Shown here: piece by piece, positions 6,240 to 13,513 of the stretch
Position numbering within the stretch: the stretch's first letter is position 1
Layout: the number at the start of each line of letters is the position of its first letter
From: Nitrospirota bacterium
GTDB lineage: Bacteria; Nitrospirota; 9FT-COMBO-42-15; HDB-SIOI813
Direction of reading: 5' to 3'
Length of the DNA stretch: 33,667 bases
Assembly (NCBI GenBank): GCA_016212215.1
Contig: JACRGV010000043.1
Span: forward strand, 1-33,667
Position numbers and translations under genes: made by a program
The notes under the pieces: generated by a model
What the model saw: the letters and a program-made list of their open reading frames with translations, nothing else
What the model was told of the DNA's origin: nothing
Databases searched by the model: none

Positions 6240-6268
6240 TTGGCATCACTGTTGCATTAAAGTATAAT
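6240..6268 (+). promoter_or_regulatory. Sigma70-like promoter of the riboswitch leader
   Basis: TTGGCA at 6240-6245 and a consensus TATAAT at 6263-6268 are separated by 17 bases. Transcription would start near 6275, about 27 bases before the first aptamer helix at 6302. A second TTGACA at 6139-6144 has no well-spaced -10 and is less convincing. Confidence 0.65.
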
Positions 6269-6301
6269 TAAAGCAAATTTATTTAAGATGTTTGTTCCTT
6301 T

Positions 6302-6386
6302 GCTCAGAGCAAACCATTCGAAAGAGTGGGGCGCAGAGTGACGGGGCTAAAGGATAATTTCAAAGATTATCCAATGCCAGCCGAGC
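6302..6386 (+). ncRNA. GEMM-I cyclic-dinucleotide riboswitch aptamer with A at the G20-equivalent position (GEMM-Ib, 3',3'-cGAMP type)
   Basis: The core matches the GEMM-I consensus. P1 GCTC (6302-6305) pairs with GAGC (6383-6386). GCAAACC is followed by a P2 hairpin, CCATTC-GAAA-GAGTGG (6314-6329), with a GNRA tetraloop. The joining segment GGCGCAGAG keeps the intercalating A (6335, A47 of the Vibrio Vc2 RNA) and C6334, which would pair with G6309 (G21). P3 contains GGATAAT (6352-6358) pairing with ATTATCC (6366-6372). Two C residues (6381-6382, the C92 region) precede the P1 3' strand. In Vc2, the base recognising one guanine of c-di-GMP is G20; aligned here it is A6308 (CAGAGC instead of CAGGGC). 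An A at this site is the known mark of GEMM-Ib riboswitches, first studied in Geobacter, which bind 3',3'-cGAMP, some with residual c-di-GMP binding. The class is clear from sequence; the ligand is inferred. Confidence 0.88.
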
Positions 6387-6419
6387 CGCCAGAGGAGAAT
6401 ATCCGATGGCGGCTTTTTT
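6384..6419 (+). terminator. Intrinsic terminator forming the riboswitch expression platform
   Basis: AGCCGCCA (6384-6391) pairs perfectly with TGGCGGCT (6407-6414) around a 15-base loop and is followed by a T-run (6414-6419). Its 5' arm reuses AGC of the P1 3' strand (6383-6386). Ligand-stabilised P1 and the terminator are therefore mutually exclusive, which predicts an ON switch: ligand bound means transcription continues into the gene at 6444. Confidence 0.85.
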
Positions 6420-6443: not shown

Positions 6444-7193
6444 ATGAGAAAGGCAATATTAATCATAATTTTAACAGTTTTAAGCATAACCTTAGCAAAA
6501 AACAGCAGGGCAGATTGGCAGATTGATCTGGATGTTTACACTCATGATGAACAATCTGATAGCGGCAATGCCACAAATAATCTATCACTCGGTAGTTCAA
6601 CCTTGTCTACAGAACTTTATGATAATAAATTTGATACAATCGCACTTACAAGCGAGCCTGTTAATGCCTACTTTTATCATCCGGAATATAAATCAAATGT
6701 TCAAAAACTGTGGAGAGATTATCGTGGGGCAGTATTACCTCAGGAGTGGGAATTCGAAGTACAGGCAAATAATATTAATAAGACAATTAATTTAAAATGG
6801 CAGATTCAGGATAATGATAATCTGCACTTTATATTAGTTGACAAAGATAATGGAAATGAGATTGATATGGCATCATCAAGTGAATACTCATATTTACCGG
6901 AGTCAACATTACCTAAAAAGTTCTTATTAAAGGTAGCAAAAAATGAAAATCCAACATCAGTGGATAATAGTAATATTACAAATAACAATATTAATAATTC
7001 AGGAACAAGTGATTCCGGAGTTACCGGTTCTAAAGGGGGAGGCTGTGGATATATTAAGGACATTAATGGTAACAATAACAACAGAAACAACAGCGGCACA
7101 AATGCAATAAATATGATGATACTTTTAGTGCCAATGTTACTTCCTTTAAAACAGTATGTAAGAAGATACGCTTTTAACGTTATAAACAGGTAA
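6444..7193 (+). CDS. Secreted protein with C-terminal anchor-like tail, controlled by the GEMM-I riboswitch
   Basis: I do not recognise the family. The start is ATG 6444, chosen over the in-frame ATG at 6420 because AAAGGAGG ends seven bases before it and the 6420 codon lies at the end of the terminator T-run. The 249-residue product begins with a Sec signal peptide (MRKAILIIILTVLSITLA, cleavage near ADW). The body (about 30-165) is acidic, Asn/Asp-rich and mostly beta-like. An Asn/Ser/Thr-rich linker follows, then GSKGGGCGY, another Asn-rich stretch, a hydrophobic helix (MMILLVPMLLPL) and a basic end with RR. This order, glycine-cysteine motif, then helix, then basic cluster, resembles CTERM-type sorting tails. 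It is the only gene on its transcript: the next gene is convergent with 3 bases between stops. Product and anchoring are inferred. Confidence 0.75.
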   Translation: MRKAILIIILTVLSITLAKNSRADWQIDLDVYTHDEQSDSGNATNNLSLGSSTLSTELYDNKFDTIALTSEPVNAYFYHPEYKSNVQKLWRDYRGAVLPQEWEFEVQANNINKTINLKWQIQDNDNLHFILVDKDNGNEIDMASSSEYSYLPESTLPKKFLLKVAKNENPTSVDNSNITNNNINNSGTSDSGVTGSKGGGCGYIKDINGNNNNRNNSGTNAINMMILLVPMLLPLKQYVRRYAFNVINR

Positions 7194-7196
7194 GGG

Positions 7197-9575
7197 CTAA
7201 GGTTTATTTATAACTAATTCATATTGCCCATCTTGCAAAACTGCAATCCAGTATCCCTGCCATATTTTAAGTACTGCCGTATTATATAGTACATAACTGT
7301 ATGTCCGGCCATTGTAGGTATATAAGGCATTGCTAACCCAGCCTAATGAAACTGCATCTTCATAAGTCTTTAACTCTCCTGAATTAATATTTCGTATATA
7401 AGTGTTCATTAGTGGAATGTCATGGGGATATGGATTACCAACCATGTTCCATCCGGGCAGGAGGGGGAGAGTTCTCTCTGAATCAGTAACTAAATTCCCA
7501 GTAATATTAAGTACGGAATTGGCTGTATTGGATTTGAGCATATACCCATAACCCGGCTGAATCTCTGTTACAGTTAAAAAAGTTCCGCTGCCGGCAGAAA
7601 TATCATTTGGTCTCCAGTAGAATACCTCAACAGGAGAACCGACAATATTGCTTAATAATGCCTGTGCATCTGAGGGTTGAGGATTAAATGGTACAGATAT
7701 CATTGTATATCCATTTCTAATGGCAGTAACAGGCATAGGGGGAAGATTATTTTCGTTTATCACATTAGAGATTGCAGATATATTACCTTTTTCATCAAGT
7801 GCCTTGATAGCAAAGTAATATACACTATTTGTAGTAAGTTGACTTACCTGAAAGGACTCTGTAGTTCCGGATGAAACAGGTGAAGGCAGGCCTGTAACTT
7901 TTATAGCTTTTGAGAAAGTTATCTCACCTTTTTTAGGAGACTGGCCATCTTCTATGATCTTTAATTTTGACATCCTTAAATCATAAGTGGAGGCTTTTCC
8001 TTCAGCGCCGTCAGCTCCGGTAGCTGTCCATTCAAGTGTTACTGAGTTCCTTGTGGAGACACCTGTGCGTATTCTTAAATCTGTTATTTGGGCCGGCACA
8101 TCAAATGGGATTGGTTTTATAGTTGTGAAGAATTGTATATCTGATATACCCTTATTCCCTGATGCATCTGATGAGAGCATACGTATACTATATTTAGTGT
8201 CAGGGCTTAGACCGGATAGTACAGCGGTGTGTGCTGTCACAAGACTATTATCACGCTCGCTTTGGTCACTTAAAGGAATACTTGTCCCATACTCAGTCTG
8301 AGTTGTTGATGCTTCATCTGTGAGCCATTTAACTGTAGCCTGAGTTGCCGTGATATTGGTTATGGTAATACCGGATATAACTGGGGCATTGATGTCCGCC
8401 GGTGTAGCTGTTGTGAAAGAGGCATCCCCTGATAGAGCAATGTTACCTGCTGCATCTATGCTCTTTACACGGTAGTGATAATCCGTAGAAGAAGACAAGT
8501 CCCTGATGGTTACACTATGATTTGAAACAAGGGTTGATTCGAGGGTTGTTGATGAACCATAATTTGTTGTTGTCCCGTACTCAGCCTGTGTAGTTGATGT
8601 TTCATTTGTTGTCCAGTTAATCACAGCTTCAGTTGAAGAAATGTTTCCGCTGGTTAGTGTAGAAATCACCGGAGGTGTAGTGTCAAGAGTTATGGATGCT
8701 GTATATTGGTCAGAAACATTGCCTGCATTGTCCTGATATTTTACTTTTAGGTTTTTTGCCCCTTCCAGATTGGAAAGTATGTAAGATTTTATTGATTTGT
8801 AATTTTCCCATGAACTCCATGTATTTCCATCCTCTGAGAACTGCATTTGTCCGCACCCGGACTCCGGATCAGTACAGGAGAGGGTAAGAATAACAGAATT
8901 AGTATTGGTTAATACAGCACTATTGTTAATAGAAACCGTTCCTGAAGGTGGAATTAAGTCAGGGGTAGTAAAGGAAACATCTGCCGAACTTCCTGAATTT
9001 CCAGAAGGGTCAAGACTGATAACCTTCACGTGATAGGTAGTTACCGGTAATAAACCGTTGAGAATAACAGTGTGTGAAGTTACCATTGTGGTATCAAGTA
9101 GTGTGGAGTTCCCATAGCTTGTTGTTATCCCATATTCTAATTGTGATGATGCGATTTCATCAGTTGTCCATGTAAGGGTTGCTGCGGAGCCGGTAATATT
9201 TGAGGTCGCTATACCAGAAAGGGTAGGCGGAGTTGAGTCCGGGATGGTCTTGGAAACCTCATTTGAGTAATTGCTTTCATTTCCTGCTGTATCATAAGCT
9301 GTTACTACAAAGTAGTATGTTACCATTTCCGTCAAATTTATTATGTTAGTTGTGGTTACATTACCTGCATCTACGGTTGAATTATAAGTACCTGAGGAAG
9401 TTCCATAGTATACTTTGTATCCGGAAAGGTCTGTTAAGGTGGTGCCATCAACATTTGTTGTCGGCGCCGTCCATGAGAGGGCTGCCTCACCACCGAAGGC
9501 TGAATCGTTAAAGCCAAAGATGATAATATTTAACAGAGAAATACTCACGATTAAAATATTTCTGCAAGTTCTCAT
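7197..9575 (-). CDS. Secreted multi-domain fibronectin type III protein
   Basis: The 792-residue product has a signal peptide (about 1-29, ending near SAFGG). Six beta-sandwich modules follow, about 90 residues each. Modules 1, 2, 4, 5 and 6 look like fibronectin type III, with repeated patterns such as WTTDE, SQLEYG and TTYHVKV and AGN turns. Module 3, with a Cys pair (SCTDPESGC), is closer to a bacterial Ig-like domain. Modules 2, 4 and 5 are close relatives, suggesting internal duplication. The C-terminal about 190 residues (NGYTMISVPFNP and LLPGWNMVGNPYP) form a conserved beta-rich ending seen in secreted proteins of this type. No catalytic motif was seen, so a surface or extracellular binding role is likely. 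It is convergent with the riboswitch-controlled gene. Confidence 0.85.
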   Translation of the reverse strand: MRTCRNILIVSISLLNIIIFGFNDSAFGGEAALSWTAPTTNVDGTTLTDLSGYKVYYGTSSGTYNSTVDAGNVTTTNIINLTEMVTYYFVVTAYDTAGNESNYSNEVSKTIPDSTPPTLSGIATSNITGSAATLTWTTDEIASSQLEYGITTSYGNSTLLDTTMVTSHTVILNGLLPVTTYHVKVISLDPSGNSGSSADVSFTTPDLIPPSGTVSINNSAVLTNTNSVILTLSCTDPESGCGQMQFSEDGNTWSSWENYKSIKSYILSNLEGAKNLKVKYQDNAGNVSDQYTASITLDTTPPVISTLTSGNISSTEAVINWTTNETSTTQAEYGTTTNYGSSTTLESTLVSNHSVTIRDLSSSTDYHYRVKSIDAAGNIALSGDASFTTATPADINAPVISGITITNITATQATVKWLTDEASTTQTEYGTSIPLSDQSERDNSLVTAHTAVLSGLSPDTKYSIRMLSSDASGNKGISDIQFFTTIKPIPFDVPAQITDLRIRTGVSTRNSVTLEWTATGADGAEGKASTYDLRMSKLKIIEDGQSPKKGEITFSKAIKVTGLPSPVSSGTTESFQVSQLTTNSVYYFAIKALDEKGNISAISNVINENNLPPMPVTAIRNGYTMISVPFNPQPSDAQALLSNIVGSPVEVFYWRPNDISAGSGTFLTVTEIQPGYGYMLKSNTANSVLNITGNLVTDSERTLPLLPGWNMVGNPYPHDIPLMNTYIRNINSGELKTYEDAVSLGWVSNALYTYNGRTYSYVLYNTAVLKIWQGYWIAVLQDGQYELVINKP

Positions 9576-12049: not shown

Positions 12050-13513
12050 TTATGATGATGCATTGGAAGCTGTGGATTGTGACGCAGGATAGGATGAGGA
12101 TGTCAACTCATGCGGCCTTCCAAGCAGGAAACCCTGAACAAGGTCTAATCCAATTCCCCGGACGACATTTAACTCCTGCTCTGTTTCAATCCCCTCTGCG
12201 ATAATACCTTCTGCGGAATAATTTCTCATAGCAAAGATCATGTCTTTTAAGAAATCCCTGAATTGTGAGGAAGATACGGCCTGCAGAACTGTTGAGCGGT
12301 CAATCTTTATGTAATCAGGTATAAGTTGTGCGATAAACGGCAATGAGATAAAACCGGCGCCGAAGTCGTCTATTGCAAATTTAAACCCCTTCTCCCGCCA
12401 TCTCTGTGCAATCCTGAGACGGTTCTCAATATTATCGAGCACCTCTTTTTCTGAGATCTCAAGTATTATATCAGTACCTTCGGGTTTTGATACATGTTCC
12501 AGGGTTCTGAGCATTTCAAAGTCCATATTAACGAATAACCTCTTCAGTCCGGCTTCTTTTGCCTTTTCAAGTTCTAATTCAAAACCCATACACTTTAATT
12601 CATTGAGTTTTCCGATAGTCTGATACCTTTTAAATAATTCAATTATCCCTAATTTCCCCTGCGGGTCCCTTCCTAATGCCTCATAAGCAAAAATGGAATC
12701 AGTTCTTGTATCAACGATAGGCTGAAACACAATTTTCATTGCATGTTTATCAATCCTGTATTCCTCTTCTCCTATCTGGATCTTGTGTCCGCCCTTTTTG
12801 GCTATGTATAAGGCACGTTCTGCATTATGAATTAATCCTGCTGAATCAGTACTATGCTCAGGGTAAAGCGCAACACCTATACTTAAATCAAGAAGTAACC
12901 GGTTCTTTTCACCTATCTTCTGCATATTCCTTCTTATACGCTCAGTTGCTATTAGCACGCCATCACGTGTAGAATTGGAAAGGGCAACAGCTATTTCATC
13001 GCCACCCCATCTTGCCACTAAGTCTGCTCCACGGGTTGACTCCCTGATACTCTGTGCCGTTGACCTTAAAACCTCATCTCCAACCACATGGCCGTAAGTA
13101 TTATTAATCTTTGTAAAGTCATCAATATCACACAACAGGATTGCTAATAAATAGTTGTATTGTCCGGCACGTGCAATCTCCTCCTCAAGCCGCTCATTAA
13201 AATAGTGGCGATCGTAAAGGTCGGTAAGATTATCCCGGATTGCCTGATACTCCAGAGTTGCCCTCATCCTTGATAATATGCGTCTGGTAGTAATAACATA
13301 AGCACAGAACAGCATGATAAGAATAATTAATCCAATCAAGGCCCTGTTTGCCATTGAGCGTAACAGGCTAAAACTGCTGTATGTTTCACCTAACAGGAAG
13401 AAATATGTTCCAACAGTGACTGCACCTAAAACAAGGATAAGTGCGAGTGCTAAAATCCAGAGCTGCCATTCCCTGCGCTCAACGGAGTTTAAATTGTTTA
13501 TTTCTTGTTTCAT
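12050..13513 (-). CDS. Membrane-anchored GGDEF-EAL protein (c-di-GMP synthesis/degradation)
   Basis: This 487-residue protein has two N-terminal helices (about 18-41 and 58-78) with only a short loop between, so no obvious sensor domain. The GGDEF domain (about 85-245) has the active-site variant GGDEI (170-174), metal-binding DIDDF, and an intact inhibitory I-site RGAD (161-164). Base-recognition residues are N137 (INN) and D146 (GDEVL). The EAL domain (about 255-470) keeps EAL (278-280), VNMDF, LEISEKE, IDDFGAG, YIKID, AEGIETE and VQGFLLGRP, so phosphodiesterase activity is expected. D146 matches the Asp of ordinary diguanylate cyclases, not the Ser of the cGAMP-making Hypr GGDEF enzymes. 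The C-terminal tail is Ser-rich. Net output (synthase or hydrolase) cannot be told from sequence. Confidence 0.92.
   Translation of the reverse strand: MKQEINNLNSVERREWQLWILALALILVLGAVTVGTYFFLLGETYSSFSLLRSMANRALIGLIILIMLFCAYVITTRRILSRMRATLEYQAIRDNLTDLYDRHYFNERLEEEIARAGQYNYLLAILLCDIDDFTKINNTYGHVVGDEVLRSTAQSIRESTRGADLVARWGGDEIAVALSNSTRDGVLIATERIRRNMQKIGEKNRLLLDLSIGVALYPEHSTDSAGLIHNAERALYIAKKGGHKIQIGEEEYRIDKHAMKIVFQPIVDTRTDSIFAYEALGRDPQGKLGIIELFKRYQTIGKLNELKCMGFELELEKAKEAGLKRLFVNMDFEMLRTLEHVSKPEGTDIILEISEKEVLDNIENRLRIAQRWREKGFKFAIDDFGAGFISLPFIAQLIPDYIKIDRSTVLQAVSSSQFRDFLKDMIFAMRNYSAEGIIAEGIETEQELNVVRGIGLDLVQGFLLGRPHELTSSSYPASQSTASNASS

Follow-up and report, generated by a model that had tools for sequence, protein, structure and literature searches.

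The closest described relatives of the element reported here are the GEMM-Ib switches of Geobacter (pgcA/GSU1761 and pilM/Gm0970), which combine the GEMM-I fold with an adenine at the position of G20 (Vc2 numbering throughout) and with C92, share a P1 strand with a terminator so that they act as ON switches, and occur together with a Hypr GGDEF enzyme in the genome. In Geobacter, cytochrome, pilus and polysaccharide genes are found behind cGAMP switches (PMC6456294), and for the pilM ON switch a ligand-aided choice during transcription has been described (PMC9262584). A G20A mutant of a Vc2-type aptamer was reported to bind cGAMP (PMC7288161). Position 20 is a factor in selectivity rather than a hard filter; c-di-GMP can also be bound by cGAMP riboswitches, and selectivity is reported to be sensitive to point changes in lower P2 (PMC9262584). 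The published Hypr signature consists of serine in place of aspartate together with GGDE[F/Y] (PMC6456294).

The window analyzed here, from an uncultured Nitrospirota bacterium, is a stretch of 33.7 kb that constitutes one contig of a 2.99-Mb genome in 164 contigs; plasmid records gave no match to it. The c-di-GMP-I family (RF01051) was the sole Rfam match in the window, and the element to which it belongs is probably a transcriptional ON riboswitch for 3',3'-cGAMP, sharing with the Geobacter switches all the traits listed above as well as surface and electron-transfer types of target. The annotated features are as follows:

6240 to 6268, plus strand: sigma-70-like promoter candidate TTGGCA-17-TATAAT, 5' of P1 (consensus scan, 11 of 12 matches)
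6297 to 6302, plus strand: P1 5' strand CCUUUG, last base equivalent to G14; pairs with 6390-6395 and covaries across phyla
6298 to 6393, plus strand: GEMM-I (RF01051) aptamer as delimited by Rfam
6303 to 6308, plus strand: J1/2 CUCAGA with the A18 equivalent at 6306 and A20, the ligand position, at 6308 (covariance-model alignment; conserved in the subtype)
6314 to 6329, plus strand: P2, CCAUUC-GAAA-GAGUGG, with GAAA tetraloop (covariance-model alignment, pairing analysis)
6332 to 6338, plus strand: CGCAGAG joining region with the intercalating A47 at 6335; position 48 is G6336, which pairs with C6387
6383 to 6419, plus strand: intrinsic terminator, stem 6383-6391/6407-6415, U-run 6414-6419 (fold -22.2 kcal/mol)
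6389 to 6395, plus strand: C92 (6389, ligand contact) and P1 3' strand CAGAGG (6390-6395) (covariance-model alignment)
6444 to 7193, plus strand: gene placed under the switch, encoding a predicted secreted/surface protein of 249 aa with a Cys-containing C-terminal tail (ORF, Shine-Dalgarno sequence AAAGGAGG)
7197 to 9575, minus strand: gene of an Fn3-domain protein, convergent to the switch gene (Pfam fn3, gene order)

The RF01051 match covers the full model length (model positions 1-87) with a score of 57.9 bits (E 5.3e-9) against a gathering score of 35 bits, which bears out the assignment to GEMM-I made in a preliminary description of this DNA. The extent given there (6302-6386) ends too early, as it omits C92, C93 and the P1 3' strand; the functional element, comprising aptamer and expression platform, reaches the terminator uridines at 6419. 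In a comparison of 42 related aptamers drawn from different phyla, 94.6% of the aptamer pairs are standard and both sides have changed in 14 of the 23 pairs in helices P1, P2 and P3. None of 500 shuffles attained either value, and sliding one strand against the other reduced pairing to only 33-47%. Of 101 sequences, 100 have a P1 of at least 5 bp; the number fell to about 46 after strands were swapped between sequences. A chance match to GEMM-I is ruled out by the covariation and by these controls. The remaining pocket positions are likewise assigned, with G21 at 6309, C46 at 6334 and C93 at 6390. A decayed or non-functional copy, or a sensor of another ligand such as c-di-AMP, is a very improbable account of such an element, as the conserved positions, the terminator and the gene are all intact and the retained C92 fits a guanine partner.

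The covariance alignment had been named beforehand as the test by which an adenine at position 20 would stand or fall, and it places A6308, not a guanine, in the ligand column of Vc2 G20, directly 5' of the GCAAACC that starts at 6309. C92 is kept (C6389) alongside this adenine. When position 20 was left open in the search pattern, adenine was found in all 56 matches to the subtype, which come from 34 of 396 Nitrospirota genomes, and 55 of the 56 have G at position 48; the reversed pattern gave no matches in the same scan. A20 is thus a fixed property of the subtype, and neither a one-off change nor a sequencing error. That adenine at this position makes an aptamer specific for cGAMP goes too far as a general rule, since the position contributes to selectivity without acting as a strict filter. 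The GEMM-Ib assignment built on it is supported by the alignment, the fixation of A20, the Hypr-signature GGDEF of the same genome and the shared ON-switch platform.

The window aptamer shares with the Vc2 c-di-GMP-I aptamer the fold, the GAAA tetraloop, the G21-C46 and C22-G45 pairs of lower P2, A47 and C92, and differs from it in having A rather than G at position 20 and a G48-C90 pair at the base of P3. As the G that stands in place of A at position 48 faces C90 in 97 of 97 sequences, it is read as a compensated pair, and A48G as a second specificity change was set aside. A Geobacteraceae genome also has the A20 form ACUAAACC...CGGA, which is common there and has a different lower P2; the window aptamer, unlike that form, reads GCAAACC...CGCAGAG and carries J1/2 CUCAGA and the G48-C90 pair. 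The Vc2-like lower P2 lies in the region reported to affect selectivity (PMC9262584), and it favours the alternative of a promiscuous aptamer that takes c-di-GMP and cGAMP alike and follows whichever is more abundant in the cell. The same alternative draws on the twelve further GGDEF matches in the genome, most of them with the canonical aspartate, and on one Nitrospirota family, designated f6 and discussed below, that has the subtype without Hypr. Against it stands the fixation of A20 in all 56 matches while the same genomes keep G20 subtypes, a combination which suggests two separate inputs; we consider a promiscuous aptamer unlikely, yet the most serious competitor of a cGAMP switch.

The subtype is recognizable by the signature J1/2 CUCAGA, CGCAGAG and GCCGCC. 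A pattern with A20 fixed was matched by 110 stretches in a collection of genomes from 84,980 species, in records labelled Nitrospirae/Nitrospirota, Gemmatimonadetes, Deltaproteobacteria, Desulfuromonadales, Geobacteraceae, Acidobacteria, Eisenbacteria and Manganitrophus. Four A20 pattern matches without P2 pairing were discarded. The aptamer of the window is also carried by contig C68 of genome G006 and by MHER01000068.1 (Nitrospirae bacterium RIFCSPLOW2_12_42_9). G20 aptamers of other subtypes were found in Nitrospirota and in the window's own genome.

Folding of the full leader yields a 9-bp terminator hairpin that includes both C92 and C93, and aptamer and terminator are mutually exclusive for this reason. 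The hairpin (6383-6415) was missed by a terminator scan limited to short loops. Since the terminator takes in C92 and C93, the gene at 6444-7193 is expected to be turned on when ligand binds. The computed energy of the terminator fold is lower than that of the P1-constrained fold (-53.3 against -35.2 kcal/mol) and the choice must therefore fall during transcription, aided by ligand. An overlap of this kind between aptamer and terminator, with a T-rich tail, is present in 84 of 97 related aptamers. The promoter candidate fits the layout of the platform, although a consensus match by itself is not evidence of function. A platform in which ligand blocks the terminator fits GEMM-Ib, with the direction of control deduced from the anatomy of the leader.

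In the mechanism we propose, the nascent RNA would fold into the 6383-6415 hairpin when no ligand is present, and transcription would halt at the uridines ahead of the gene. When cGAMP is bound, its guanine would pair with C92 and its adenine would meet A20, and the closure of P1 would keep C92 and C93 within the aptamer, so that the terminator is blocked and transcription continues into the surface-protein gene at 6444. The only GGDEF enzyme with a Hypr signature in the genome, a GAF-GGDEF protein encoded on contig C145 (L012:937-2022), would make the ligand.

A search of the genome for a Hypr GGDEF, as recommended in the preliminary description, thus returned one such protein among 13 GGDEF matches. 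It reads GHLAGS...GGDEF, and the serine at its base-reading position aligns to that of Geobacter GacA in structure 6d9m, in agreement with the Hypr signature of serine plus GGDEF. The other GGDEF proteins of the genome with a readable motif have aspartate at this position. The GacA Hypr domain (6d9m) is also its best PDB match (E 4.8e-45; next 9.5e-31), and the two proteins differ in architecture (GAF-GGDEF as against receiver-GGDEF) and at the position of GacA Tyr304, where the GAF-GGDEF protein has leucine, a residue outside the set assayed in the GacA work. This position is non-discriminating here, as most canonical GGDEF proteins of the genome also lack arginine. From these sequence features we regard the protein as a candidate cGAMP synthase. 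In each of the ten genomes that make up the window's family, a single Hypr-signature gene adjoins the 3' end of secA and one or more A20 aptamers are present. The window itself also encodes a GGDEF-EAL protein (12050-13513, minus strand) with aspartate at the base-reading position and GGDEI, which is not a Hypr candidate.

Across 198 Nitrospirota genomes, A20 and Hypr occur together in 26, A20 only in 12, Hypr only in 42 and neither in 118 (Fisher p 2e-6, kinship ignored). With family f6 left out, the corresponding counts are 26, 3, 42 and 113. Hypr signatures are frequent in the phylum (68 of 198 genomes), and at the level of families the association is weak, Hypr being present in 12 of 15 families with A20 and in 12 of 18 without. 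A strict Hypr DNA pattern was matched by 19 of 31 further genomes drawn from carriers of the subtype in several phyla, and one Geobacteraceae genome has the same A20 subtype and a Hypr gene.

The subtype is not confined to genomes with Hypr, as A20 aptamers without the Hypr motif occur in family f6 and in three further genomes; restriction to Hypr-bearing genomes is a supporting expectation for GEMM-Ib and not strictly a defining one. In f6, A20 aptamers were found in at least nine genomes (G014, G023, G031, G046, G052, G056, G060, G064 and G079), and no Hypr motif was found in them. The looser motif with one mismatch gave a single site there, which has asparagine (codon AAC) and not serine, and was rejected. 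The f6 GGDEF proteins nearest to the Hypr query have aspartate wherever the motif is readable, with asparagine in one. Either another synthase is in use in f6, or the RNA there answers to c-di-GMP. An ordinary c-di-GMP riboswitch that tolerates A20 would account for f6; it would also agree with c-di-GMP-I being the best Rfam family and with the reported ability of a cGAMP aptamer to take c-di-GMP (PMC9262584). For the window this account appears distinctly improbable, given the fixation of A20 across phyla, the Hypr-signature enzyme in the genome and the natural contrast offered by the G20 aptamer of the same genome. Our confidence in the window element as a cGAMP switch is not higher mainly because of the f6 exception.

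The product of the gene behind the switch has a signal-like N-terminus and no Pfam or NCBIfam match over its 249 aa; a longer reading from 6420 is possible. In three relatives (G002, G003 and G004) the first gene of the operon behind the same switch encodes an Fn3-domain protein, and the next is homologous to the window gene at 35-45% identity. As the Fn3 gene is convergent in the window and comes directly behind the switch in these relatives, the gene order has been rearranged. A second switch ahead of the window's Fn3 gene was sought and none was found. On another contig of the same genome (L318, contig C96), a paralogous Fn3 gene precedes another homologue of the switch-controlled gene; the contig breaks off shortly before this Fn3 gene begins, and a further switch may lie there. 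In three members of the window's family (G004, G006 and G007), aptamers of this subtype lead operons in which a membrane-protein gene comes before one for a multihaem cytochrome (at least 31-35 CxxCH motifs).

Two sequence features were noted behind or near A20 switches. One is a C-terminal tail of the form GGGCG[YFM][IV]KD, followed by a linker, a hydrophobic stretch and Arg/Lys, which occurs on proteins behind or near these switches (window 7040-7190; L086, L142, L163, L182, L192, L301, L303 and L309) and about 17 times in one relative (G020); it resembles a cysteine-containing sorting signal of a kind not yet catalogued. The other is found in other Nitrospirota and in Acidobacteria (L030, L032, L099, L150 and L156), where the A20 subtype lies ahead of ORFs whose beginning reads ...GLDIGSS... 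and which, judged by eye, are similar to the pilus-assembly protein PilM, a known target of cGAMP switches in Geobacter.

The RNA class itself is known, as is the base that marks its cGAMP subclass, and the wide distribution is the interesting part. Signalling by cGAMP probably reaches well beyond Geobacter. The stronger proposition, that aptamers with CUCAGA, A20 and G48-C90 form a distinct cGAMP-responsive subclass over several phyla and that Nitrospirota, including Candidatus Manganitrophus, use Hypr cGAMP signalling, we regard as evenly balanced. If it is true, cGAMP turns on surface proteins and multihaem cytochromes in Nitrospirota, cGAMP-based regulation of surface contact and of electron transfer is ancient or widely transferred rather than a speciality of Geobacter, and family f6 implies an unrecognised cGAMP synthase. 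With cGAMP as the ligand, a pathway known mainly from Geobacter would operate in uncultured phyla of groundwater and soil, and the A20 subtype would offer an inexpensive way to recognize cGAMP regulons in genomes. A literature search of limited coverage found nothing joining Nitrospira(e) or Gemmatimonadetes with Hypr or cGAMP riboswitches.

Further A20 copies, also proposed as a search target, do not occur in the window's genome, where the sole other GEMM-I copy (L002:1415-1556, minus strand, contig C20) has G20 and a long P3 insert. It belongs to a subtype different from that of the window and most resembles c-di-GMP-I-UAU (RF03168), a family of the same clan, with 47.4 bits, which is under the cut-off of 65.9; it lies about 210 bases ahead of a secreted-looking ORF of 341 aa. 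Near-identical aptamers that differ at position 20 provide natural sets for testing the change of ligand in GEMM-I. In the CACCUUCUAUCA subtype of the window's family, position 20 is either G (L002, L047, L054, L056, L072 and L076) or A (L050, L051, L060 and L084), sometimes with both in one genome (G004), and these CACCUUCUAUCA aptamers are natural single-base relatives for tests of specificity.
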